A DNA stretch of 64,000 bases, from assembly GCF_022808865.1 (NCBI RefSeq), contig NZ_JAKZLB010000001.1, forward strand, positions 186,001-250,000, written 5' to 3'. A program made the position numbers and the translations under genes. The notes under the pieces are model-generated. The model was not told the origin of the DNA, made no database searches, and worked only from the letters and a program-made list of their open reading frames with translations. Positions within the stretch are counted from its first letter, which is position 1. Every line of letters starts with the position of its first letter. This stretch comes from Geothrix oryzisoli. GTDB lineage: Bacteria > Acidobacteriota > Holophagae > Holophagales > Holophagaceae. Positions 30,607-41,983 of the stretch are shown piece after piece.

Positions 30607-30714
30607 GAAATCAGTCTGCCAGCAAATAATTCCCCCGAGGTCCCTTGCGCCGGCGACCGGGCTTGATAGCATCGCTCGACACCGGAGGTTCCAGTGCGGG
30701 GCAGGGGGCGTGGC

Positions 30715-32886
30715 ATGAGGCGACTCGCGCAGGGTCTGTGTGTGCTGGGGGCGCTCCTGCCCTCCGGAGCGGCGGCCCAGGAGGCCGTGCCGGCCTGGGC
30801 GCGCGAGCGGGCCGGACACTGGTCCACCTACCGCACGGATGGCCGTGGGCAGCGCATCTGGCAGGCCGTGCCCTTCGCCCAGATGACGCCCGCTGAACAG
30901 TGGGATCAGTTCCTGGAGCATCTGAAACAAGGGGGCGAAGCCCGCCGGGTGGCCCTGGCCTTCCTGGGTCAACGGACCGCATCGGTCTGGGCCGAAGAAG
31001 GCCTGAAGACCGGGGATCCGGAGGTGGCGCTCGCCCTCTATCGGATCGGCTACCGGCGTCCGGGCGCCGACCCCTTCGCGTACCTGGGTGCTCCGGACCG
31101 CGTGGAGCGTCCCTGGACTCATGGCCTGGGGCTCCACCTGGACAAAGCGGGCTGGCGGTTCCAATGGATTCCCAGCCCGGCCCTGTTCACGCAATCTGGG
31201 ACGGCGGCCCTTCCGAAGGGCCTGGCCCAGGCCGCGCAGCCGGGCGTGCTCATCCACCTGAAGCGCCTGCGACCCGACCTCGAGCGGCTCGTCTCCCTCG
31301 GCGGAGGGCAGGGGGCGGCCCAGGCCGGCCCTGCCGGCGGCATCCTCCCGGCGCTGGCCCAGGGCAGCCGCGTGGGCTTCGCGGTGCGGCACCTGGAGCC
31401 ATGGCTGAAGCAGGCCTCTCCGGCCCTGGAACCCCTGGCGAACCGCGAGGCCTGGGTGCTGCACTACGGGCCCGCGCGGGAGGGCGCGGAAGGGATCCAG
31501 GGAACCCTGGTGTTCGTTCCAGGTGATCTGCCGGCGCGGACGCAGCTGATGATGGCCCTGCTCAAGTTGAACCCCCTGAGCGCGGGGGCCCGCTCCCGCG
31601 TGGTGAAGTGGACCGGCCCCGGGGCTTCCACGGAAGTCCAGCAGCTGCGTGGATCCGGTGGGGTCTTCCACTTGATCCAGATGGCCGAGGGCACCTGGAT
31701 CAGCGATCGCGAGGCCCCACTGCGCGCGCTGTTGTTCCCGGGTCCCTTTCCCACCCTGGGCGAGCGCCCGGAGTGGGCCCGGGTGGCCTTGTCGGCCATG
31801 GGGTCGGAGACCGAGTTGTCCTTCTGGCTGGCCCCGCGCATCGGTGCGGACGCAGCGTTCGAGATCCAGGCCCTCCGCCGCCGGCAGGTGAACGCGCAGC
31901 AGGGCACCTGGCCCAATCCCTTCGTGGCCAAGGCCGCCCCGCGTACCGGGGCCCTGGCCGTGGCGCTCGGGGCGGGGCCCACCGAGAAGCTCGTGGAGGC
32001 CCTGTTGCGCGTGGACCATCCCCGCGACCTTCCGGTGCCTCAGATGCCCCAGTTCGCAGACGGCGGGCGGGCGCTCAGCCCCGCGCAGATGACGGAGTAC
32101 AAGGCCGCCGTGGCCCGCGGGGAAGAGCAGCTCCGCCAGCGCAACCTGCTCCGCCAGGACGCGGCGGCGCTGCAGGCCTGTCTGGACCTCCGCGGCGCCG
32201 CTCTGTTCTGGAACGGCTGGGTCACGGCGCCGCCGCTGAATCCTGCCGAGAAGGCGGCCCTGACGGAACTGGCCCGGCTCCGGCGCGAGGATCCATGGCG
32301 GGCCATGCGGACTCAGCAGGAGGGGAAGGTGGCGGCCTTCGGCGGGTTCGGTGAGCCCGGCATGGTCCCGAGCCTGGCCCTGGCCCTCCCCCTGCAGCCT
32401 GCCCGGCGGATCCAGGCGGAGAACCTGCTGAAGAAGGTCCTGCCGCGCCTCTTCCAGGGGCAGAACCAGAAGCAGGCCCTCGGCGCCGCCGAGGTGCACC
32501 GCATTCTCACCGCCCAGGCGTTCCGGCCCGCCTGGATCGTGGTGGCCGACACCCTGGTGCTGGGCACGGACGAGGCCGCCGTGAAGGCTGTGGCCGCGGG
32601 GCTCCTGGGCCAGGCCCCGACCTTGGCCGACAGCGACTCCCGCGCCTGGGCGCGCATGGAGGTGGATGGGGCTCGGGCTTCTTCCGAACTGGAGAACCTG
32701 CTGCTGGCCTTCCTCCGCAGCCGCACAGGCAGCGGCTGGTGGATCGGCGAATCGGCCTCCCAGGATGAGGCGGCCGCGGAGCTGGCGGGGAGCCTGGGCC
32801 CCTTCCTCGGCGTCCTCAAGGGCCTGGGGCCCGTGCGCCTGGAGTGGAACTGGACCGCAGGCGGCCTGGAGGGGCGGCCCCGATGA
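30715..32886 (+). CDS. Large exported protein at the yfaA position of an alpha-2-macroglobulin operon
   Basis: The 723-residue protein has a signal peptide ([16 protein letters not shown]) and no recognisable catalytic motif. It is a long alpha/beta sequence with repeated short elements such as [42 protein letters not shown] and [23 protein letters not shown]. In that respect it resembles large periplasmic proteins such as DUF2138/YfaA or DUF3352. My only strong argument for YfaA equivalence is position: it is first in an operon followed by DUF1175 and a macroglobulin, as in E. coli. AGGGGGC lies ahead of the ATG at 30715. Its stop overlaps the next start (ATGA). Confidence 0.7.
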
Positions 32887-33827
32887 ATCCACGCCTCCTG
32901 TTGGCCGCGGGCGCCGTGCTGGCCGCCGCGATCGCGCTGGTGCCGGTCCGGCACCGGGCGACCCTGGAGGCCGACCCCGCCAACCCCGTGGTCCGCCTCC
33001 GGGTGGAAAGTCGCTCGCTCCTGGGCCTGCGTCGGTCGGGCTGGGGCGTGAGCGTCCGCGGGGTGCAGGCCTGGCGCGGGCCCGGAGGGTTCTTCCTGGT
33101 GGCCGAGGCGCCCGTCGTGGCGGAGGTCACGGCCTGGCCTGGCTTCCGACAGTCACTGTCCATTTCAGCCTCCGGCGCCCGGCTCCAGGGCGGCCTTCCG
33201 GATGAAGGCGACCGTGAGGCCTTCCGCAGCTGGTTCGTGGCGCTGCTCGAGCAGCAGGTGGAGGCGCCCAGCCCCGCCTGGGAGCCCGCCCAACGGGACT
33301 GCGCGGGTCTGCTCCGCTTCGCCTTCCGCGAGGCCCTCGCCCCGCACACGGCCGAGTGGCGGAGCCGCGTCGCCTTCAACGAAGGTGCCCCGGGCCAGGA
33401 TCCCTCCCCCGCGCTCGGTGCCGCCTGGCGGCAGGGGTTCCCCACACCGGATGGGCCGCGCCCCTTCGCCAAGGGTGCCTTCCTCCGGCGTCTCGCCTGT
33501 GTGCCCCTGGGGCGCGATACGGCCTTGGCCCGCCCCGGGGACCTGGTGTTCTTCGCCCGCGGCGGAGCCCGCACCCAGCCCGACCACGCCATGGCCTTCG
33601 TGAGGCCGGATGTGGACGGCGCCCCCATGCTGCTCTACCACACAGGACCCGAGGGCAGCGGCACCGCCCAGAAGCCCGGCGAGGTCCGCCGCGTCCGGCT
33701 GGATGATCTGCTGCACCACCCCGATCCCGACTTCCGACCCGTACCCGAAAATCCCTCGTTCCTGGGCCTCTTCCGCTGGCGCTTGCTGGCGGGCGGAGCC
33801 TCCGAGCCATTCCTTCCCAGGTCCTGA
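32883..33827 (+). CDS. DUF1175 family (YfaT-like) protein
   Basis: The 314-residue product has an N-terminal hydrophobic anchor ([18 protein letters not shown]) and a domain with [16 protein letters not shown] near residue 140, DLVFFARGG and [10 protein letters not shown]. This matches the DUF1175/YfaT type. The Cys-containing DCAGL...REA segment followed by a conserved His (DHAM) looks like an NlpC/P60-type Cys-His arrangement, suggesting a papain-like fold, though this is inference. The ATG overlaps the previous stop by four bases, and its own stop lies one base before the macroglobulin ATG, so it is tightly coupled to both. Confidence 0.82.
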
Positions 33828-33828
33828 C

Positions 33829-36800
33829 ATGCGCTGGTTCCGACCGATCCTCACCCTGTTGCTGCCGGCGCTCCTGCTGCTGCCGACCGCCGGTACGGCC
33901 CAGAAGCGGGCCACCGAAGCCCCCTGGCGCGAGGGTGGCTGGACCGGCGCCTTCGCCACCCTGCGGCCGACCCTCCCGGGGAAGCCGGGCCAGCTGGAGG
34001 CCGCCGGTCCCATCCCGGCTGAAGCCCGCATCCGGATCTACCGGGTGGAAGATCCCGAAACCTTCCTGAAGAAGGTCCTGACCGACCGCAACCAGGCCGC
34101 GGCGGCGGGGGGCCGCGGGGTCTCGGATCCCCTCGACCTGCTGCGAGAAGCGGTCCTGTGGGGCGGACGCCGCGCCTTCGTCACCGTGCATCGCACCGCC
34201 ACCCGGACCCTGCGGGATGTGGCCAAGCAGACGGACCGGCTGCACTCCGCCCGTACCAGCCCGGACCGGGTCCGCGAAGGCTCGGCCCTGCCCATCGAAG
34301 GACAGCCGGGCATCACCTTCGTCACCGAGATCATCCCCAGGGTCAGCGAGGACATCGCCGGGAAGAAGGGACATGAGGACGATGAATCCGGTGATGACGG
34401 TTTCACCAGCCGCGTGCAGCTGCCGGCCCAGCCCACGGGCCTCTACCTGGTGGAGATCCTGCGGGGCAGCGAGGCGGCCTACGTGCCCTGGATGGTGACC
34501 GATCTGGCGCTGCTGTCGGAACAGGACGGCCTGCGGATCCGCGTGCAGGCGGTGGATGGGCGCGATGGCGCGCCGAAGGCCGGCGTGTCCGGCCAGCTCC
34601 TCGAAGGGGCCAAAGTCCAGCCGCTGACCTTCGATGGCGGCGGCAGGGCCGAGGCCACGGTCACGCCAGGCGTGCGCCGGCTGGTTCTGGCCCGCAGCGG
34701 AGGGAGCTTCGCCCTTCTCGCCAGTGAAGGCCAGAGCGCCGCCGCCGTGCGCCAACGCCTCTATGCGTTCACGGAGCGGCCGCTCTACCGTCCGGGCCAG
34801 GAGGTCTTCGCCAAGGCCATCCTCCGCCGCGTGGACGAGGGGGAGAACCGCGTGGTGAATGGGGCCGCGAGCCTGCCCTTCACGGTGCTCGACCCCGAGG
34901 ACACGAAGGTGACGGAAGGCCAGGCGAAGCTGCTGAACGCCGAAACCGGCACCTACGCCGCCCAGTTCATCCTGCCGGGCGCGGGACGCCTGGGCCTCTA
35001 CCGCCTGGTGTTCCAGGGGCCCCAGGGACCCGGCCAGGCCGAGTTCAAGGTGGAGCAGTTCGTGAAGCCCGCCTTCGAGGTGAAGGTGACATCCGAAAAG
35101 AGCAAGGTGGGCCTGGGCGACGCGCTGACCTTCCATGCGAATGCCCGCTACTTCTATGGCGCGGCGGTGCGCGGCGCCAAGGCGGACTGGTTCCTCTACA
35201 AGGTGGTGCCGCCCAAGGCCCGCTGGATCTGGGATGAGGAGGATGCCGGTCCGGCCCCGGAGTTGATGGAAAGCGGCCAGCTGGAGCTCGACGATGACGG
35301 TCAGGCGGATCTGCCCACCTTCAAGGCAGAAAGCGACGGACTCTGGCGCATGGTCGTGAAAGTGGCCGACGCCTCGGGTCAGCGCAACAGCGGCCAGGCT
35401 CAGGTGCGGGCGGCCGCCGGCGACCTGGTGCTGATGATCGCCGCGGACCGCCAGGTGGCCCTGCCGGGGAAACCCTTCCAGGTGACGGCGCGGGCCCTCG
35501 ATTTGGACGGCAAAGAGGTGTCGGGAGTGCCCATCATCTTGCGGGCCGCGCGCATCGTGGCCCAGAAGGACAGCGCCTACTGGTGGTCGCGACCCACGGC
35601 CCTGAAACCCGGCGAGACCATCGCCTCCGCCCGGGGCCCCCAGGCCATGCTGAGCATCCCCGAGGGTGGTGCCTTCCTGCTGGTGGCCGAGGCCCGGGAT
35701 TCCAAGGGTCGGCCCGTGACCGCCCAGCGCCAGATCACCGTGGCGGCGGAAGGCACGCCGCTGCCCGCCGTGCCCGACCTCCGCGCCGCCGCCGACAAGC
35801 CCGAATACCAGCCCGGCGATACGGCCCGCATCCTCGTGCAGCTGCCGCGGCCCAGGCTGACCCTGCACTGGGCGCTGGAGCACGAAGGCCTTGGGCAGCA
35901 GCAGAGCCGCGCCGTGCAGGGCACCACGGCCCTGATCGAAGTCCCCGTCACCGCGGCCATGCAGCCCAATGTCTGGGCCGTCTTCGAGATCGTGAGCGAG
36001 GGCCGCCGCCAGATGGCGGAAGTGCCCCTCCGGGTTCCGAAGCGCGACCGCCGCCTCCAGGTGGCCGTCACCACCGAGAAGGAACGCTACCAGCCGGGCC
36101 AGCCCATGAAGGTCTCCGTGGAGGTGAAGGATGCCTCCGGAAGGCCCTCCGCCGCGGACCTCAGCGTGGGCGTGGTGGATGAGGCCATCTACGCCCTGAG
36201 CCAGGAACTGCATCCCGACCCGGTGCGCTTCTTCCATCCCACGCGCCGCCACGGCGTGCTGCGCTCCGGCTCCACGGACTGGAACTTCCACGATCTGCTG
36301 CGCCGGCAGCGCCCTGTGTGGAGCCTCAAGCAGACGAAACGCGGCGACTTCAAGGCCGATGACGACGACAAGGTGCGCCAGAACTTCAAGGACACGGCCC
36401 ACTGGGTGCCCTTCGTGGCTGCGGGCCGCGACGGGAAGGCCAGCGTGGACCTGGTGCTGCCGGACAACCTCACCGCCTGGCGGGCCACGGCCACGGCAAT
36501 CACCGCCGATACCAAGGTGGGTGTGGGCCGGGCCTCGAAGCCAGCCTCGAAGCCCCTGCAGGTGGCCCTCACCCTGCCGCGCACGCTGAGCGTGGGCGAG
36601 GAGGCCCGGGCCATCGCCCTGGTGCGCAACCTCTCCGGTCAGCCCATCCAGGGGAAGATCCGGCTGGAGGTGCAGAACGGCCGCTTCTCCGGGACGCCCG
36701 ATGGCACCTTCACCCTCCAGGACCAGGGCGAGTACCGCTTCGCCCTGCCCCTGTTCTCCGACAAGACCGGCCCGCTCACGGTGACGGCCCGGGTGGAAGG

Positions 36801-38586
36801 CGGCGGGCTGAAGGATGCCGAACGGCAGAAGGTCGTCGTCCAGGACCAGCTCGTCCCGGCCTCGATGTCCGGTTCCCTGCTGATGGAAGGAGGCTCCCAG
36901 ACCCTCACCATCCCGACCCCGCCGGGCGCCAAGGGCGAGGCGACGCTGGTGCTCACGCCCGTGGGCAACCTGGAGCACCTGGCCGCGCCCTCGCTGCCCT
37001 ACCTCATCGGCTATCCCTACGGCTGTGTGGAGCAGACGCTCTCGAGCTTCGTGCCCAACCTGCTGGTGGCCGACCTCGTGAAGCAGGGCGCCATGCCGGA
37101 CCTGGACTGGAAGCAGCTCACGAACCTGGACCGCAACATCCGCGATGGCGTGTTCAAGGTCTACGGCTATCAGCTGCCCAATGGCGGCTGGGGCTGGTAT
37201 GCGCCCAAGGACTTCGGCCTGGACGCCAACCCCCACACGACGGGCTACGCCATCCAGAGCTTCGCCACCATGGCGCGCCTGGGCTATGCCGTGGATGAAG
37301 GGGTCTACCGCCGCGGCCGCATGGCGGCCCTGAACCTCTTCCAGCAGGTGGCCCGGCAGGCGGATCAGGCTGGATCTGCACCCAAGGCCCGGGCCGACCA
37401 CGGGCGCGCCACGGAACCCGCCGCGGATGCCGCCTTCCTGCTGGTGTCCCTGGCCCAGACTGGCGAACCCCTCGCGGGCCTGCTGGACAGCGCCGCGGAC
37501 AAGGTGCTGCGCGGACAGTGGCCCGGTGACCACGTGCTGGCCATGGTGGCGCTGGCCGCCGCCCAGGCGAAGCACCCGCGGACGGCCGCGCTGATCGAGC
37601 GCCTGGAGCAGCGCGCCGTGGTGAAGGGCGGCCTGGCCCGCTGGGAGGGCCGCCGGGAGTTCTGGTGGAGCTATGCCTCGGGTGATGTGGTGCCCACGGT
37701 GATGGCGCTGAAGGCTCTGTGCCTGGCGCGTCCCCAGTCGCCGCTGATCCGCCAGGGCGAGACCTTCCTGGCCTCGGAATACCGCGGCTACGGCTGGTAC
37801 TCCACCTGGAGCACGGGCCAGATCGTGGATCTGCTGCCCTACCTGATGAAGGTCCGCAAGCTGGACTGGGGGCCGCTCGCCATCCAGGCGGCCGTGCAGG
37901 GTGGCCCCACCTGGGACTTCAAGGAACGGCCCCAGCCCCGCCGGTGGAACGCCCGTGAGTCCCGCCCGGGCAGCTACGCCATGGCGGAGCCGAAGCCCGT
38001 CACCCTCACCGCCAGCGGCAAGGGCCTGCTGGTGTGGACCTATGCCTACCAGGTGCCCGGCAGTGCCGCGGCCATCCCCAAGGGCGACGCCTCCTCGGCT
38101 CTGCGGCTGTCCGTGACCCGCAGCCTCTGGCGGCTGAAGACGCCGCAGGAAACCGGCAATGCCCGCCAAGGTTGGATCCGCCAGCGCTGGACGGGGACCC
38201 TGAACGCAGGCGAGGAGGCCTGGATGGAGGTGTCCTTCCGCACGGACCGGGACGCGGACTACGTGATGCTGGAGGTGCCCGTCCCCGGTGGCCTCAATCC
38301 CACAGTGAAGCTGGAGGGCTTCGTCCTCGAAGGGAAGTCCTTCACGGACGAGGGGGCCACCGAAACCTGGACGAAGCCCCGCATCGAGGTTCACGCAGAC
38401 AAAGTGACCTTCCTGTTCCCCCGGACCTGGAGCTGGGACACCCACACGGTGCGGATCCTCCTGCGGGCGGGTATGGCGGGCAGCTACCGGCTGCGGCCGG
38501 CCAAGCTGAGCCTCATGTCGGACGAAGGGCAGTGGGCCACCTGTGATGGCGCGGGCCTGAAGGTCCTGGATGGAGGTGCGCGATGA
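33829..38586 (+). CDS. Bacterial alpha-2-macroglobulin (YfaS-like) with intact thioester
   Basis: The 1585-residue exported protein (signal LLLPALLLLPTAGTAQ, no lipobox) has the macroglobulin series of beta-domains: a YRPGQEVFAKAILRR segment, an extended MG region, VSVEVKDASGRPSAADLSVGVVDEAIYAL, and the LPDNLTAWRATATAIT motif. It then carries the thioester GCVEQ (C1066, Q1069) in PYGCVEQTLSSFVPN, followed by the alpha-helical thioester domain and a C-terminal receptor-like domain. In this family a protease cleaves the bait region, the Cys-Gln thioester is exposed and the attacker is trapped covalently. Length and order match E. coli YfaS (about 1530 residues). Being soluble or loosely attached, it probably patrols the periplasm. 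Overlaps with both neighbours indicate co-production. Confidence 0.93.
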   Translation: MRWFRPILTLLLPALLLLPTAGTAQKRATEAPWREGGWTGAFATLRPTLPGKPGQLEAAGPIPAEARIRIYRVEDPETFLKKVLTDRNQAAAAGGRGVSDPLDLLREAVLWGGRRAFVTVHRTATRTLRDVAKQTDRLHSARTSPDRVREGSALPIEGQPGITFVTEIIPRVSEDIAGKKGHEDDESGDDGFTSRVQLPAQPTGLYLVEILRGSEAAYVPWMVTDLALLSEQDGLRIRVQAVDGRDGAPKAGVSGQLLEGAKVQPLTFDGGGRAEATVTPGVRRLVLARSGGSFALLASEGQSAAAVRQRLYAFTERPLYRPGQEVFAKAILRRVDEGENRVVNGAASLPFTVLDPEDTKVTEGQAKLLNAETGTYAAQFILPGAGRLGLYRLVFQGPQGPGQAEFKVEQFVKPAFEVKVTSEKSKVGLGDALTFHANARYFYGAAVRGAKADWFLYKVVPPKARWIWDEEDAGPAPELMESGQLELDDDGQADLPTFKAESDGLWRMVVKVADASGQRNSGQAQVRAAAGDLVLMIAADRQVALPGKPFQVTARALDLDGKEVSGVPIILRAARIVAQKDSAYWWSRPTALKPGETIASARGPQAMLSIPEGGAFLLVAEARDSKGRPVTAQRQITVAAEGTPLPAVPDLRAAADKPEYQPGDTARILVQLPRPRLTLHWALEHEGLGQQQSRAVQGTTALIEVPVTAAMQPNVWAVFEIVSEGRRQMAEVPLRVPKRDRRLQVAVTTEKERYQPGQPMKVSVEVKDASGRPSAADLSVGVVDEAIYALSQELHPDPVRFFHPTRRHGVLRSGSTDWNFHDLLRRQRPVWSLKQTKRGDFKADDDDKVRQNFKDTAHWVPFVAAGRDGKASVDLVLPDNLTAWRATATAITADTKVGVGRASKPASKPLQVALTLPRTLSVGEEARAIALVRNLSGQPIQGKIRLEVQNGRFSGTPDGTFTLQDQGEYRFALPLFSDKTGPLTVTARVEGGGLKDAERQKVVVQDQLVPASMSGSLLMEGGSQTLTIPTPPGAKGEATLVLTPVGNLEHLAAPSLPYLIGYPYGCVEQTLSSFVPNLLVADLVKQGAMPDLDWKQLTNLDRNIRDGVFKVYGYQLPNGGWGWYAPKDFGLDANPHTTGYAIQSFATMARLGYAVDEGVYRRGRMAALNLFQQVARQADQAGSAPKARADHGRATEPAADAAFLLVSLAQTGEPLAGLLDSAADKVLRGQWPGDHVLAMVALAAAQAKHPRTAALIERLEQRAVVKGGLARWEGRREFWWSYASGDVVPTVMALKALCLARPQSPLIRQGETFLASEYRGYGWYSTWSTGQIVDLLPYLMKVRKLDWGPLAIQAAVQGGPTWDFKERPQPRRWNARESRPGSYAMAEPKPVTLTASGKGLLVWTYAYQVPGSAAAIPKGDASSALRLSVTRSLWRLKTPQETGNARQGWIRQRWTGTLNAGEEAWMEVSFRTDRDADYVMLEVPVPGGLNPTVKLEGFVLEGKSFTDEGATETWTKPRIEVHADKVTFLFPRTWSWDTHTVRILLRAGMAGSYRLRPAKLSLMSDEGQWATCDGAGLKVLDGGAR

Positions 38587-39443
38587 GGCCGCTGCTGGTT
38601 CTCCCCCTCCTGCTGACAGCCCCTCTCCTGGGCGCCCAGAAGGCGCGGACGACCAGGCCCCAGCCCGTGGTGGCCTATGTACCCGACCTCAAGCAGTGGC
38701 GCCTGGAGCTGTCGCCGGCCCTCGGCGGGTGGTCCGGGGACCGCACCGTGAACCTGCGGATCAAGCTGGTGGACCCCCGGGATCCCAACCCGCCCAAGGA
38801 CCAGGCCCAGCCCCGGTTCTTCGATGAGGAAGGGGGGGGCGAGGACGAGCTTCGCACGGAGGACACCCGCACCGCCGAGCAGCTCCGGCAGGAACGGCTG
38901 GCCCGGGAGGCCGAGGCCGCCCGCAACGCCTGGCGGACGCGCACCCTGCAGGTGTGGTTCAACGGTGCGGCGCTGCGCTGGCAGGCCAGCGTGGGCACCA
39001 CCCTGCACACCGAGCTCACCGCCCAGAATGGCGAGAACCGGCTGGAGATCCTGGAACCGGATTCGGGCCTGAAAGTGGTTCGCAGCTGGTGGGTGTCCAC
39101 GGCGCGGACCCGCCTCCGCGTGGTGTCCCTGCAGGTTGGCGACGAGTACCCCGGCGGCAGCCTCCAGGTGCAGGAGCCGGACGGGGCCCTGGCCCAGGGG
39201 GGGCGCCGCACGCCCTCGGGCGGCATGCTGCGCTGGTCCGGCGAATACACCCACGAGACCCCGCCACCGGGTACCTACACGCTGAAATGGATCAGCGGCT
39301 GGCGGGGCGGCCGGCCGACCCGGGTCCGCCTCGAGGCCCTGCTGGACGGCGGCACCGACCAGGAGCGCCGCTGGACCTGGGAGCGCCTCATTCTGCCCGG
39401 CGCCGGACCGGTCACCCTGGGGACCTTCGATGTGGAACCCTAG
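38583..39443 (+). CDS. Exported DUF2135-like (YfaP-type) protein
   Basis: The 286-residue product has a signal peptide (LLVLPLLLTAPLLGAQ), an acidic linker (EEGGGEDELRTEDTRT), a beta-sandwich region (TLQVWFNGAALRWQ, LHTELTAQNGENRLEILEP) and a C-terminal beta domain (GGSLQVQEPDG, ETPPPGTYTLKWISGWRGG). The last domain resembles DUF2135 of YfaP, where a P-x-G-x-Y-x-L strand is typical. The function of that family is unknown; by context it acts with the macroglobulin in the periplasm. GGAGG precedes the ATG, which overlaps the macroglobulin stop by four bases. Its own stop overlaps the next gene by 14 bases. Confidence 0.75.
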   Translation: MRPLLVLPLLLTAPLLGAQKARTTRPQPVVAYVPDLKQWRLELSPALGGWSGDRTVNLRIKLVDPRDPNPPKDQAQPRFFDEEGGGEDELRTEDTRTAEQLRQERLAREAEAARNAWRTRTLQVWFNGAALRWQASVGTTLHTELTAQNGENRLEILEPDSGLKVVRSWWVSTARTRLRVVSLQVGDEYPGGSLQVQEPDGALAQGGRRTPSGGMLRWSGEYTHETPPPGTYTLKWISGWRGGRPTRVRLEALLDGGTDQERRWTWERLILPGAGPVTLGTFDVEP

Positions 39444-40260
39444 GCTCGCCGCTGTCCTCCTGGCCTTCCGGCTGCTGACCGCCCAGCCTGCGCCGGAAGC
39501 CGGGCCCAATCCCGCGCTGCTGGCGGCTTCGCGGGCGCCGGTCCTCCGGCCGGGCGAGGGCTTCGCCATCACCTTGGGGGACGGTGAGGTGCGGGCCTTC
39601 GGGGAGGCCCGCCGGGAGGCCCCCATGGGCAGCCTCGCCAAGCTGGTCTGGACGCGGCTGGAGGGGGCCGAGTGGTCCAGCTCGGGCGTCCAGTACCGGT
39701 GCAAGGGGGCGGACGGGCCTTTCGTGTGCTGGAACCGCGAGGGCCATGGTCGGGTGGATCTGGGCCGCGCCCTCCAGGAGAGCTGCAACCTGGCTTTCCT
39801 GTTCTGGATCGCGGGCTCCCGCGAGCGCTGGCTGCAGGACTACGGCCCGGATGCGGCCCGGGCGCGCCTGGAGGATGTCTTCCAGCCCTTCCTGGGCCAC
39901 CGGATGCCTCCGGGGGAAGGCCTGCCTCCCCTGACGCCGGCCTGGGTCGGGGACGGGGATCTGCTGCGGACCAGCCCCGAGGCCTTCCTCCGCTGGCTCA
40001 TGGAACCGGACCAGGCGGAGGTGGTGACCTTCGGGAAGCGCTACCTGGCGGGCTACTGGGTGGAGTTCATGGACCTGTTCGGCAAGGAGGGCTGGTGGTT
40101 CAAGACCGGCACCGGCCCGGTGCCCGGCGAGCCTGCCGCCACCAGCGCCTGGGTGGCGGGTGGGCGGGGTTCCGCCCTCGTGGTGCTCCACCTGCCGCGC
40201 GGTCGGGGCAAACACGAGGGCATGGTGCGCATCCGGGAGATCCTGGGGCTGAAACCTTGA
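39430..40260 (+). CDS. Exported penicillin-binding-protein/class D beta-lactamase-like serine enzyme
   Basis: The 276-residue protein starts with a hydrophobic export signal. All three active-site motifs of penicillin-recognising serine enzymes are in order at plausible spacing: S68-L-A-K71 (SxxK), S118-C-N120 (SxN, within GHGRVDLGRALQESCNLAF, very like PBP2-type transpeptidases) and K225-T-G227 (KTG, in GWWFKTGTGP). It should therefore bind or act on peptidoglycan stem peptides, or be a beta-lactam-reactive enzyme, in the periplasm. It is small compared with class B PBPs and has only the catalytic domain. By position it may correspond to part of YfaQ. Its start lies 14 bases inside the previous gene and its stop overlaps the next start. 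Confidence 0.78.
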   Translation: MWNPRLAAVLLAFRLLTAQPAPEAGPNPALLAASRAPVLRPGEGFAITLGDGEVRAFGEARREAPMGSLAKLVWTRLEGAEWSSSGVQYRCKGADGPFVCWNREGHGRVDLGRALQESCNLAFLFWIAGSRERWLQDYGPDAARARLEDVFQPFLGHRMPPGEGLPPLTPAWVGDGDLLRTSPEAFLRWLMEPDQAEVVTFGKRYLAGYWVEFMDLFGKEGWWFKTGTGPVPGEPAATSAWVAGGRGSALVVLHLPRGRGKHEGMVRIREILGLKP

Positions 40261-41735
40261 TCGCTCTGGCGGTCGCGGCACCCGCGCCACCGTTCACGCC
40301 ACCCGTGGTCGAGGGTGATCCGGTTGTCCGGCCGGCTGTGGAAGAGGCGCTGCGGCAGTCCTTCGCGGCCACGGCAGGCTATGGCGCCTGGCCTTCCGGG
40401 CCCTGGCGCGTGGTCATCCACCCGGATGCCGCCGCCTTCGAGCAGGCTACCGGGGCCCCCACCGGCCGCAGCGCCCAGTGGGTGGGCGGAACCCTGCATC
40501 TGCGCCCCTGGGAGCAGCTGCAGAGGCGGGACGCGGGGCTGGTTCTGCGGCATGAGCTGACGCACCGGCGCCTGCGGGATGCGGGCCTCCGCCGCTGGGC
40601 CGAGGAGGCCCGGTGTCTGTGGGCGGAGCGTCACCCGAGGCCGCCGAAGGCCTGGCCCGCCACGCCTCCCTCCGGGCTGCAGGCGCGCCTCGACCGCGCC
40701 CTCGCCGGGGGCACCACCCGCGAGCAGGCCTGGGCGTACCGCTGGCTGCGGGCCTGGCTCCGGGGCGAGCCCCTGCCTGCACCGCCCAGCGCCAAGGCGG
40801 CCGAGCGCGATGCCTGGGTCCGGGAAGCCCCCCTCCTGGCCGAGACCATCACTGTGGTGTGGCCGCCGGAGCGCCTCCGCCACGGCATGGAAGTGAATGG
40901 ACACCGGCTGTCGCATGTGGCCGGGAAGACCTGGCGGTTCCGCGGTCCGGTCCGGTTCGGCCCGGGTTTCCCCGTCCACCAGCTGACCGGCCGCGTGGTG
41001 GTGCGGGCCGAGGCGAAGGGATGGCGCCTGGCCTGGACGGCCTCCCACGCTGCCTGGATCGCCGCCGCCACCGAGGGCGAGCTGGGTGCCGGGGCGCCGT
41101 TCGAGGCCCGGCGGGCCTTGGCGGCGGTCCTCCGCCGCTGGCTGGAGGGGCACCGTCAGCAACATCCCGGCGGCGTCCTCTGCCCCCTGACGCACTGCGC
41201 CGTGGTGCGGGGCAGTGCCTCCGCAGACACGGCCCAGGCCGTGGCGGCCGCTCCGGGTCTGGAGCTGGATCCCCGCTGGGCCTTCTTCACCGGCTCTGCG
41301 GGTGGGCACGCCCTCAGCCCCCGCGAGGTATGGGGCGAGGGACCGGTCGGCTCCGGCCAGGCCGCGGAGGTCCCCGGCGACCGCTGGCGGGCCTGGGAAC
41401 GGGACCTCAGCGCCGCCCAGGTCGAGGCATTGAAGCAGGCTGTGCGGCCAGGCGTGAAGGCAGGGCAACGCGGCCTGCGCCTGGGGGACTCCGGGCCCTA
41501 TGCGGTCGAGGATCTGCGCCTGGCCGCAGGCCGGCGCTTCGGCTGGACCACCTGGCCCAGCAATGTCTGCGCGGCGGAGGTCCGCCCTGACGGATCGCTG
41601 CGGCTGAGCGGCTATGGTTGGGGCCACAACGTGGGCCTCTGCCTTGCCACCGCCCGTTTCCGCGCGGGCGAGGGCGCCAGCGCAGAGCAGATCCTGGCGG
41701 AGGCGTTCCCGGCCTCGTGGCGGGTCGCACCATGA
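40257..41735 (+). CDS. HExxH metallopeptidase-like plus SpoIID-like domain protein
   Basis: The 492-residue product begins at a TTG overlapping the preceding TGA (TTGA). An N-terminal region has H99-E-L-T-H103, then W114-A-E-E about ten residues on, the spacing of gluzincin-type peptidase MA-like domains. The second half (about 260-492) looks like SpoIID/LytB: ATEGELGAGAPFEARRALAAVL, a Cys-containing GGVLCPLTHCAVVRG, and the closing GWGHNVGLCLATARFRAGEGASAEQILAEAFP. SpoIID enzymes cleave glycan strands lacking stem peptides. The short hydrophobic start (IALAVAAPAP) is a marginal export signal. In context it would edit the wall beside a macroglobulin and a PBP-like enzyme. Function is inferred from motifs only. 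Confidence 0.72.
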   Translation: MIALAVAAPAPPFTPPVVEGDPVVRPAVEEALRQSFAATAGYGAWPSGPWRVVIHPDAAAFEQATGAPTGRSAQWVGGTLHLRPWEQLQRRDAGLVLRHELTHRRLRDAGLRRWAEEARCLWAERHPRPPKAWPATPPSGLQARLDRALAGGTTREQAWAYRWLRAWLRGEPLPAPPSAKAAERDAWVREAPLLAETITVVWPPERLRHGMEVNGHRLSHVAGKTWRFRGPVRFGPGFPVHQLTGRVVVRAEAKGWRLAWTASHAAWIAAATEGELGAGAPFEARRALAAVLRRWLEGHRQQHPGGVLCPLTHCAVVRGSASADTAQAVAAAPGLELDPRWAFFTGSAGGHALSPREVWGEGPVGSGQAAEVPGDRWRAWERDLSAAQVEALKQAVRPGVKAGQRGLRLGDSGPYAVEDLRLAAGRRFGWTTWPSNVCAAEVRPDGSLRLSGYGWGHNVGLCLATARFRAGEGASAEQILAEAFPASWRVAP

Positions 41736-41983
41736 TCTGGTGGGTCTACCTGCTCCGCTGCGGGGACGGCACGCTCTACTGCGGCATCGCGCTGGATGTG
41801 GAGGCACGCCTCCGGCTGCACCGCGAGGGAAAGGGTGCCAAGTACACCCGGGGCCGGAGCCCCCTGGAGTTGGTGTATCGCGAAGCCTGCGGCTCGAAAG
41901 CCGAGGCCCTGCGGAGGGAGCGGACCCTCAAGCGCCTGAAGCGCCCGGCCAAGGAAGCGCTGATCACTACAGGAAGACCGTGA
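41732..41983 (+). CDS. GIY-YIG domain protein (YhbQ/UPF0213-like)
   Basis: An 83-residue protein consisting of one GIY-YIG nuclease-like module. It has WVYLLRCGDGTLYCGIALDVEARLRLH in place of GIY...YIG, the conserved Arg in ARLRLH, RGRSPLELVYREA, and the Glu in EALRRERTLKRLKR. This is the length and pattern of the small UPF0213/YhbQ group, whose role in DNA processing is poorly known. The ATG overlaps the upstream stop (ATGA), so it is the last gene of the macroglobulin operon. Its 3' end overlaps the convergent gene by 17 bases. Confidence 0.88.
   Translation: MIWWVYLLRCGDGTLYCGIALDVEARLRLHREGKGAKYTRGRSPLELVYREACGSKAEALRRERTLKRLKRPAKEALITTGRP

Follow-up and report, generated by a model that had tools for sequence, protein, structure and literature searches.

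The window, a 64,000-nucleotide stretch of the Geothrix oryzisoli genome, carries seven consecutive plus-strand genes, g1 to g7, at positions 30715-41983. All seven open reading frames and all six junctions of this coupled set, predicted originally from the DNA letters, were found as described. Each of the six junctions is an overlap or a single-base gap: ATGA overlaps join g1/g2 (32883-32886), g3/g4 (38583-38586) and g6/g7 (41732-41735), a TTGA overlap joins g5/g6 (40257-40260), 14 bases are shared by g4/g5 (39430-39443), and 1 base lies between the g2 stop (33827) and the g3 start (33829). The features of the locus are listed below.

30607..30714, plus strand: intergenic region from the amidohydrolase gene to g1, presumed to hold the operon promoter
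30715..32886, plus strand: g1, exported protein of 723 aa, family unassigned
32883..33827, plus strand: g2, DUF1175 protein of the YfaT/MagC family with an NlpC/P60-like fold (Pfam, 5.5e-43)
33829..38586, plus strand: g3, alpha-2-macroglobulin in the MagD/YfaS position (Pfam MG2, A2M_BRD, A2M, bMG10 and TED)
38583..39443, plus strand: g4, exported DUF2135-like protein of the YfaP/MagA/MagF family (hhalign to a YfaP/MagF alignment)
39430..40260, plus strand: g5, PBP-like serine protein with a DD-peptidase/transpeptidase fold (structure model, Foldseek, motifs)
39631-39642, 39781-39789 and 40102-40110, plus strand: g5 motifs SLAK, SCN and KTG, respectively (sequence)
40257..41735, plus strand: g6, HExxH metalloprotease-like N-module and SpoIID-like C-module (hhalign, NCBIfam)
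40551-40565, plus strand: HELTH of the g6 HExxH module, with WAEEA downstream (sequence)
41079-41108 and 41181-41198, plus strand: ELGAGAPFEA and CPLTHC of the g6 SpoIID-like module (aligned to SpoIID modules)
41732..41983, plus strand: g7, small GIY-YIG protein of 83 aa (Pfam GIY-YIG, 5.7e-17)

The upstream neighbour is a divergent amidohydrolase gene on the minus strand, starting at about 30606; downstream of the operon lie a convergent minus-strand gene and then the ribulose-phosphate epimerase gene (rpe). No match to the sigma-70 consensus was found in 30607..30714. Separate internal promoters or terminators had been named beforehand as evidence against a single unit, and neither promoter-like nor terminator-like sites rose above shuffled sequence across the operon region. 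PADLOC recognised no known anti-phage system in the operon. The genome comprises 3.23 Mb in 7 contigs, with the window on contig C1. The order g1 to g7 was maintained in those loci of the genus that were read completely, and also in other Holophagaceae, where it is fused or interrupted by contig ends in places. Near-identical loci occur in named Geothrix, e.g. Geothrix paludis and G. limicola.

Products of g1 to g4 and g7

The original prediction likened the gene order to E. coli yfaA-T-S-Q-P. The DUF1175, macroglobulin, YfaQ and YfaP families agreed with that likeness; g1, the implied counterpart of YfaA, did not, as hhalign to the MagB (YfaA/DUF2138) alignment reached a probability of only 2%. 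We rejected homology of g1 to DUF2138/MagB/YfaA on this result; DUF2138/MagB was not found in Blastocatellia loci either. Searches of Pfam, NCBIfam and PADLOC returned no match to g1. The protein is conserved within the genus at 63-84% identity, and its structure model was of low confidence (mean pLDDT 52), too poor for a structure search.

The predicted identities of g2 as DUF1175 and g7 as GIY-YIG were borne out by the Pfam scores given above. A hydrophobic segment lies at the N-terminus of g2, its profile matches PDB 7bk8 'MagC' (4e-65), and Cys139, His235 and His253 occupy the invariant Cys-His-His columns of the DUF1175 family in 13 diverse sequences. DUF1175 has been described as inactive (PMC10318531). 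As in mag/yfa operons, the DUF1175 gene lies directly upstream of the macroglobulin gene. Pfam did not recognise g4 directly, and blastp against YfaP gave an E-value of 0.003; its predicted DUF2135-like character was upheld by profile comparison only (hhalign to the YfaP/MagF alignment, 97%, E 9.8e-11), which places it in the DUF2135 family found in mag/yfa operons. We could not retain g7 as a member of the unit. The gene was seen in Holophagaceae loci only, with none beside non-Holophagaceae operons, and it persists next to g5 where the macroglobulin is missing. Its product has no signal peptide, and g7 is probably a co-transcribed passenger.

The start of g3 resembles a signal peptide. Both parts of the prediction for this gene, a macroglobulin and an intact CVEQ, held: Pfam A2M domains were found, and the TED carries CVEQ at residues 1066-1069 (nucleotides 37024-37035), aligned with the CxEQ of other mag-type macroglobulins. 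The bait-region domain (A2M_BRD, 4.9e-17) and the mag-type context agree with a Type II macroglobulin. Type II proteins have been defined as lacking the CXEQ thioester motif (PMC5764988), and g3 departs from this part of the definition; earlier wording was more cautious, with the thioester missing 'in many species' (PMC3328433). After de-duplication the motif could be read in 98 mag-type loci, and 90 of them keep the thioester Cys; the 8 exceptions carry Gly, and all are Pseudomonadota, including Pseudomonas and Escherichia. Therefore, the thioester-less mag-type forms are most simply read, from these sequences, as secondary losses in lineages that happened to be studied. Bait domain and thioester together are conserved across most loci. 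The thioester state changed at least three times on a 58-row macroglobulin tree, a quick tree in which long branches meet and whose deep order was not used.

The intact CVEQ, present as in Type I, could also mean that g3 is a Type I (YfhM/PBP1C) macroglobulin recruited into a mag-like cluster, and the deep position of the Holophagaceae A2M, unresolved on the tree, leaves room for such an origin. However, the thioester is no mark of Type I, because almost every mag-type macroglobulin has CxEQ, the exceptions being a few Pseudomonadota. Moreover, no pbpC was found among the operon genes or the neighbouring genes searched, and the nearest genes encode DUF1175 and DUF2135-like proteins. We rejected recruitment as the main reading on these grounds and consider it highly improbable.

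The wall modules of g5 and g6

The prediction of a PBP-like g5 and an HExxH/SpoIID-like g6 was confirmed by Foldseek, hhalign and NCBIfam matches. An AlphaFold model of g5 (pLDDT 75.5, pTM 0.74) matched class D beta-lactamases, the BlaR1 sensor and PBPs in Foldseek (best E 3.3e-6, probability 1.00), and NCBIfam returned PBP2 (1e-5). With this fold and its SxxK, SxN and KTG motifs, g5 falls within the serine PBP/beta-lactamase superfamily, as a motif-complete protein that is predicted to be catalytically complete. The N-part of g6 matched the C-terminal HExxH module of a Blastocatellia fusion protein (hhalign 97%, E 5.8e-11), and its C-part matched the SpoIID module of the same fusion (98%, E 2e-13). 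The C-part has the conserved Glu and C-x-x-THC of SpoIID, and alone it lies below the Pfam threshold; NCBIfam assigned g6 to SpoIID_LytB (2.3e-5).

In Blastocatellia, a single protein has the order PBP-SpoIID-HExxH (Pfam Transpeptidase 6.7e-34, SpoIID 1.5e-21). E. coli YfaQ, for which Pfam reports DUF2300 and SpoIID, likewise has HExxH after the SpoIID part in an alignment. The Holophagaceae arrangement is PBP followed by a separate HExxH-SpoIID gene, and in genome G097 (locus L055) the g5 and g6 equivalents are fused into 715 residues. These module orders, with those of Spirochaetota, argue that g5 and g6 together are the MagE/YfaQ (DUF2300) equivalent of the operon, divided between two genes and with its last two modules swapped; g5 corresponds to the N-terminal module and g6 to the other two. 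Direct hhalign of g5 and g6 to the Pseudomonadota MagE alignment was weak (E 6e-4 and 6e-3, respectively); the connection is made via the Blastocatellia fusion and the individual modules. YfaQ had already been predicted to be transpeptidase-like and SpoIID-like; the portion of that report available to us does not mention the HExxH module, its permutation or the fission series (PMC12282094).

A short hydrophobic stretch at the start of g6 prompted the idea of a programmed frameshift joining g5 and g6. We rejected it, since most of the relatives read retain the 4-base start/stop overlap and the g6 equivalent in locus L059 has a signal-like start; coupled re-initiation is simpler.

Co-occurrence was assessed in 76 de-duplicated DUF1175-macroglobulin loci with at least 3.5 kb downstream. 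All gene counts in relatives rest on profile matches to open reading frames, subsequently de-duplicated, because the gene caller used for relatives was home-made. Within the fetched flank, a DUF2135-like gene was present in 74/76 loci, a PBP module in 68/76, SpoIID in 67/76 and HExxH in 70/76, and only 3/76 were missing all three wall modules. The proposed conserved unit of a periplasmic macroglobulin with peptidoglycan enzymes thus holds in about nine of ten evaluable loci, across several phyla. Close relatives lacking the PBP-like and SpoIID-like genes had been named as refuting it; in Holophagaceae, g5 and g6 were instead kept with the macroglobulin. DUF1175 was found in 37/297 sampled genomes of Acidobacteriota, the phylum of the window, and in 15/398 of Pseudomonas's phylum.

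The three wall modules are encoded by one gene in Blastocatellia, Pseudomonadota and G097, by two in Holophagaceae, L078 and L094, and by three consecutive genes in Spirochaetota (L105 and L107), a pattern that favours a single functional set. In several Acidobacteriota a fused wall gene adjoins the operon but is read from the other strand (L033, L035, L036, L039, L045, L047, L048 and L050). Elsewhere in the window's genome there is one other SpoIID gene, a canonical one, so that chance adjacency is unlikely. In every readable Pseudomonadota locus, PBP motifs 2 and 3 are degenerate (SCG/SCA, KTW/KTF) despite the presence of the macroglobulin; PBP catalysis is therefore not universally required.

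Macroglobulin and g5 active site in Geothrix

The macroglobulin was found in 23/47 Geothrix genomes and g5 in 46/47. Ten macroglobulin-less genomes were read, and only g5 and g7 were left between the amidohydrolase gene and rpe; for the other macroglobulin-less genomes, absence rests on the assembly. A search of seven macroglobulin-less genomes for the A2M family found no other macroglobulin. As g6 accompanied the macroglobulin in 23/23 genomes and occurred in 1/24 without it, at a contig edge, g6 was the only one of the last three genes to track the macroglobulin. The suggestion that conserved co-occurrence of these three genes would support one system therefore failed literally, because g5 and g7 persist in macroglobulin-less genomes. 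Retention of g5 without the macroglobulin means that it has some other role too.

The g5 active site was scored in 45 Geothrix genomes. Each genome with the macroglobulin (23/23) had SxxK, SxN and K[T/S]G intact, and active-site residues were broken in 22/22 genomes without it (Fisher p 2.4e-13, ignoring relatedness). Broken copies had Ser68 replaced by Gly, Asp or Glu, Lys71 by Leu, Gln or Arg, Ser118 by Asp, Gly or Asn, and Lys225 by Gln, Leu or Ile; the copy in genome G716 was broken at Lys225 alone. On the best tree, the g5 state required at least four parsimony changes. Two independent contrasts fell on well-supported branches, and the sign test uses just these two. The dN/dS of broken copies was 0.13-0.27, compared with 0.07-0.23 for intact copies. 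As they are under purifying selection, broken copies resemble pseudoenzymes that have been retained more than they do dead genes. Outgroup Holophagaceae have full, intact operons and joint regain of SxxK, SxN and KTG is implausible; loss of the unit, not gain, is thus the likely direction. An active site that is intact only where the macroglobulin is present suggests that the macroglobulin and the PBP-type enzyme work together.

We also considered whether the last genes are mere neighbours, with g5 and g7 residents of the amidohydrolase-rpe site and the macroglobulin genes arriving around them, uncoupled. Such an origin would account for g5 being in 46/47 genomes when the macroglobulin is in 23/47, and for g5 and g7 standing alone between amidohydrolase and rpe in the 10 inspected genomes. 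It is weakened by the perfect active-site split (23/0 vs 0/22) and by the likely direction of loss, and in other phyla PBP, SpoIID and HExxH modules accompany the macroglobulin, also as fusions. We regard an uncoupled origin as very improbable.

Proposed function and likeness to known systems

We think it somewhat probable that the operon encodes a complex for envelope defence, which captures intruding proteases and also edits or repairs peptidoglycan, wall repair being a step that we infer. The proteins would work in the periplasm, at sites where T6SS attack, predation or lytic enzymes have breached the envelope. Cleavage of the bait region would spring the macroglobulin, and the protease would be trapped covalently via the thioester. 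The DUF1175 and DUF2135 proteins would hold the assembly at the wall, where the SpoIID/PBP pair would trim and re-link damaged glycan strands and peptides; protease capture and the editing or repair of peptidoglycan by the SpoIID, PBP and HExxH proteins would in this way share one site. PBP-type chemistry would be of use only alongside the macroglobulin unit: where the unit has been lost, the active site has decayed repeatedly although the protein survives. Independent losses are few in number, which weighs against this reading. Published work fits a link to the wall: magD protects P. aeruginosa against the peptidoglycan-targeting T6SS effectors VgrG3 and Tae1 (PMC12663445). What magD counters there are peptidoglycan hydrolases rather than proteases, so the trapping of proteases may be a lesser function.

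This last observation would also suit an operon mainly for peptidoglycan maintenance, in which the macroglobulin serves not for defence but as a structural regulator (for example a scaffold or bait-cleavage switch). A single macroglobulin is adjoined by three to four modules directed at the wall, the g5 active site tracks it, and yfaQ deletion gives wide cells and a profile like that of peptidoglycan-remodelling mutants without any attack (PMC12282094). However, in vitro MagD captures a protease once its bait is cleaved (PMC5764988), most loci conserve the bait domain and thioester, as suits a covalent trap, and absence of the unit from about half of Geothrix genomes suits accessory defence better. 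We consider a mainly maintenance role unlikely and prefer the defence complex.

It is conceivable, and we put it forward tentatively, that the macroglobulin unit and the PBP-fold enzyme are one machine. Firing of the trap may license or target local wall re-linking, and PBP catalysis would be under selection only in the company of the thioester macroglobulin and the SpoIID/HExxH protein, g5 turning into a conserved pseudoenzyme when the macroglobulin is lost. If there is one machine, the thioester-less 'Type II' proteins would derive from a thioester-bearing, wall-repairing defence complex. Because Acidobacteriota operons keep both the thioester and complete PBP motifs, both proposed activities are testable there by point mutation. 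Coupling of YfhM and PBP1C has long been suspected, from gene adjacency only; the natural experiment in Geothrix offers direct comparative evidence for coupling of trap and PBP beyond such adjacency.

By its gene families, we assign the operon to the known mag/yfa family as its Holophagaceae/Geothrix member. The operon as such is thus not novel, its core being already known; what is new here is the intact thioester, the catalytically complete MagE with its permuted modules, and how closely the state of the PBP active site follows the presence of the macroglobulin. Like magABCDEF of P. aeruginosa, it unites DUF1175 (MagC), macroglobulin (MagD), MagE modules and DUF2135 (MagA/MagF) in one operon. 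In that system MagD binds MagA, MagB and MagF, and a role as a chaperone-like factor of the cytoplasm has been ascribed to MagE (PMC5764988). The Pseudomonas sequences examined have GGVEQ or CGVEQ, whereas the thioester is intact in the Geothrix operon. MagE is in one piece, with SCG and KTW, whereas in Geothrix it is split with the last two modules swapped, and g5 has complete SCN and KTG. Where Pseudomonas has DUF2138/MagB, Geothrix has g1, with no homologue detected, and the Geothrix operon has an extra GIY-YIG gene. E. coli yfaA-yfaT-yfaS-yfaQ-yfaP shares the core families, with PBP-like, SpoIID and HExxH parts in YfaQ; however, yfaS is a pseudogene in K-12 without CxEQ (GGVIN), yfaP is last in order, and YfaA is not homologous to g1 by profile comparison. 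The Type I pair YfhM-PbpC of E. coli resembles the operon in that a thioester macroglobulin is encoded with a penicillin-binding protein. Its gene set differs, with no DUF1175 or DUF2135 adjoining yfhM, and g5 consists of a PBP-fold domain alone, with no glycosyltransferase attached.

Retention of g5 in Geothrix lacking the macroglobulin

In ten Geothrix genomes without the macroglobulin (L186-L195), the amidohydrolase-rpe (ribulose-phosphate epimerase) site carries only g5, which encodes the PBP-fold protein, and the GIY-YIG gene. As g1-g4 are missing upstream of g5 and g6 is missing downstream, two blocks flanking g5 are gone while g5 itself was retained. Homologues of g5 with broken active sites (L196-L207 and L186-L195) gave dN/dS values of 0.13-0.27, indicating that they are still under purifying selection. 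These proteins look like pseudoenzymes with a role independent of catalysis.

The PBP module of MagE/YfaQ, the protein split between g5 and g6, was also read in Pseudomonadota (L117, L138-L148 and L172-L180), with loci counted only where the module was readable. In all of these, SxN was replaced by SCG or SCA, and KTG by KTW or KTF.

Other arrangements and macroglobulin classes

The DUF2135-like and DUF1175 domains were fused in one protein at eleven loci, mostly from Methylomonas (L118, L121, L124, L125, L127, L130, L134, L136, L137, L140 and L142). An unassigned protein of ~560 residues follows, and at several loci this is followed by a divergent macroglobulin (CTEQLAHS). These loci hold the same families, differently arranged.

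Further macroglobulin classes were observed within the same genomes (L165, L166, L170 and L171), one of 1907-2323 residues with SCLEQR and another of 1660-1733 residues with GCFEQTSS.

Locus L133 (JAJTBC010000057.1, titled Bacillota bacterium) and L059, from Holophagaceae genome G284, are apparently one and the same contig of 10280 bases, as their total length and gene sizes match. The Bacillota title looks wrong.

Triad positions of DUF1175

DUF1175 is encoded by g2, and its triad region was compared in an alignment of 13 diverse sequences (A1).

33297-33647, plus strand: Cys-His-His region of DUF1175 (alignment A1)

The Cys, His and His columns at the NlpC/P60 triad positions were invariant, in contrast to a previous report in which DUF1175 was termed inactive (PMC10318531).
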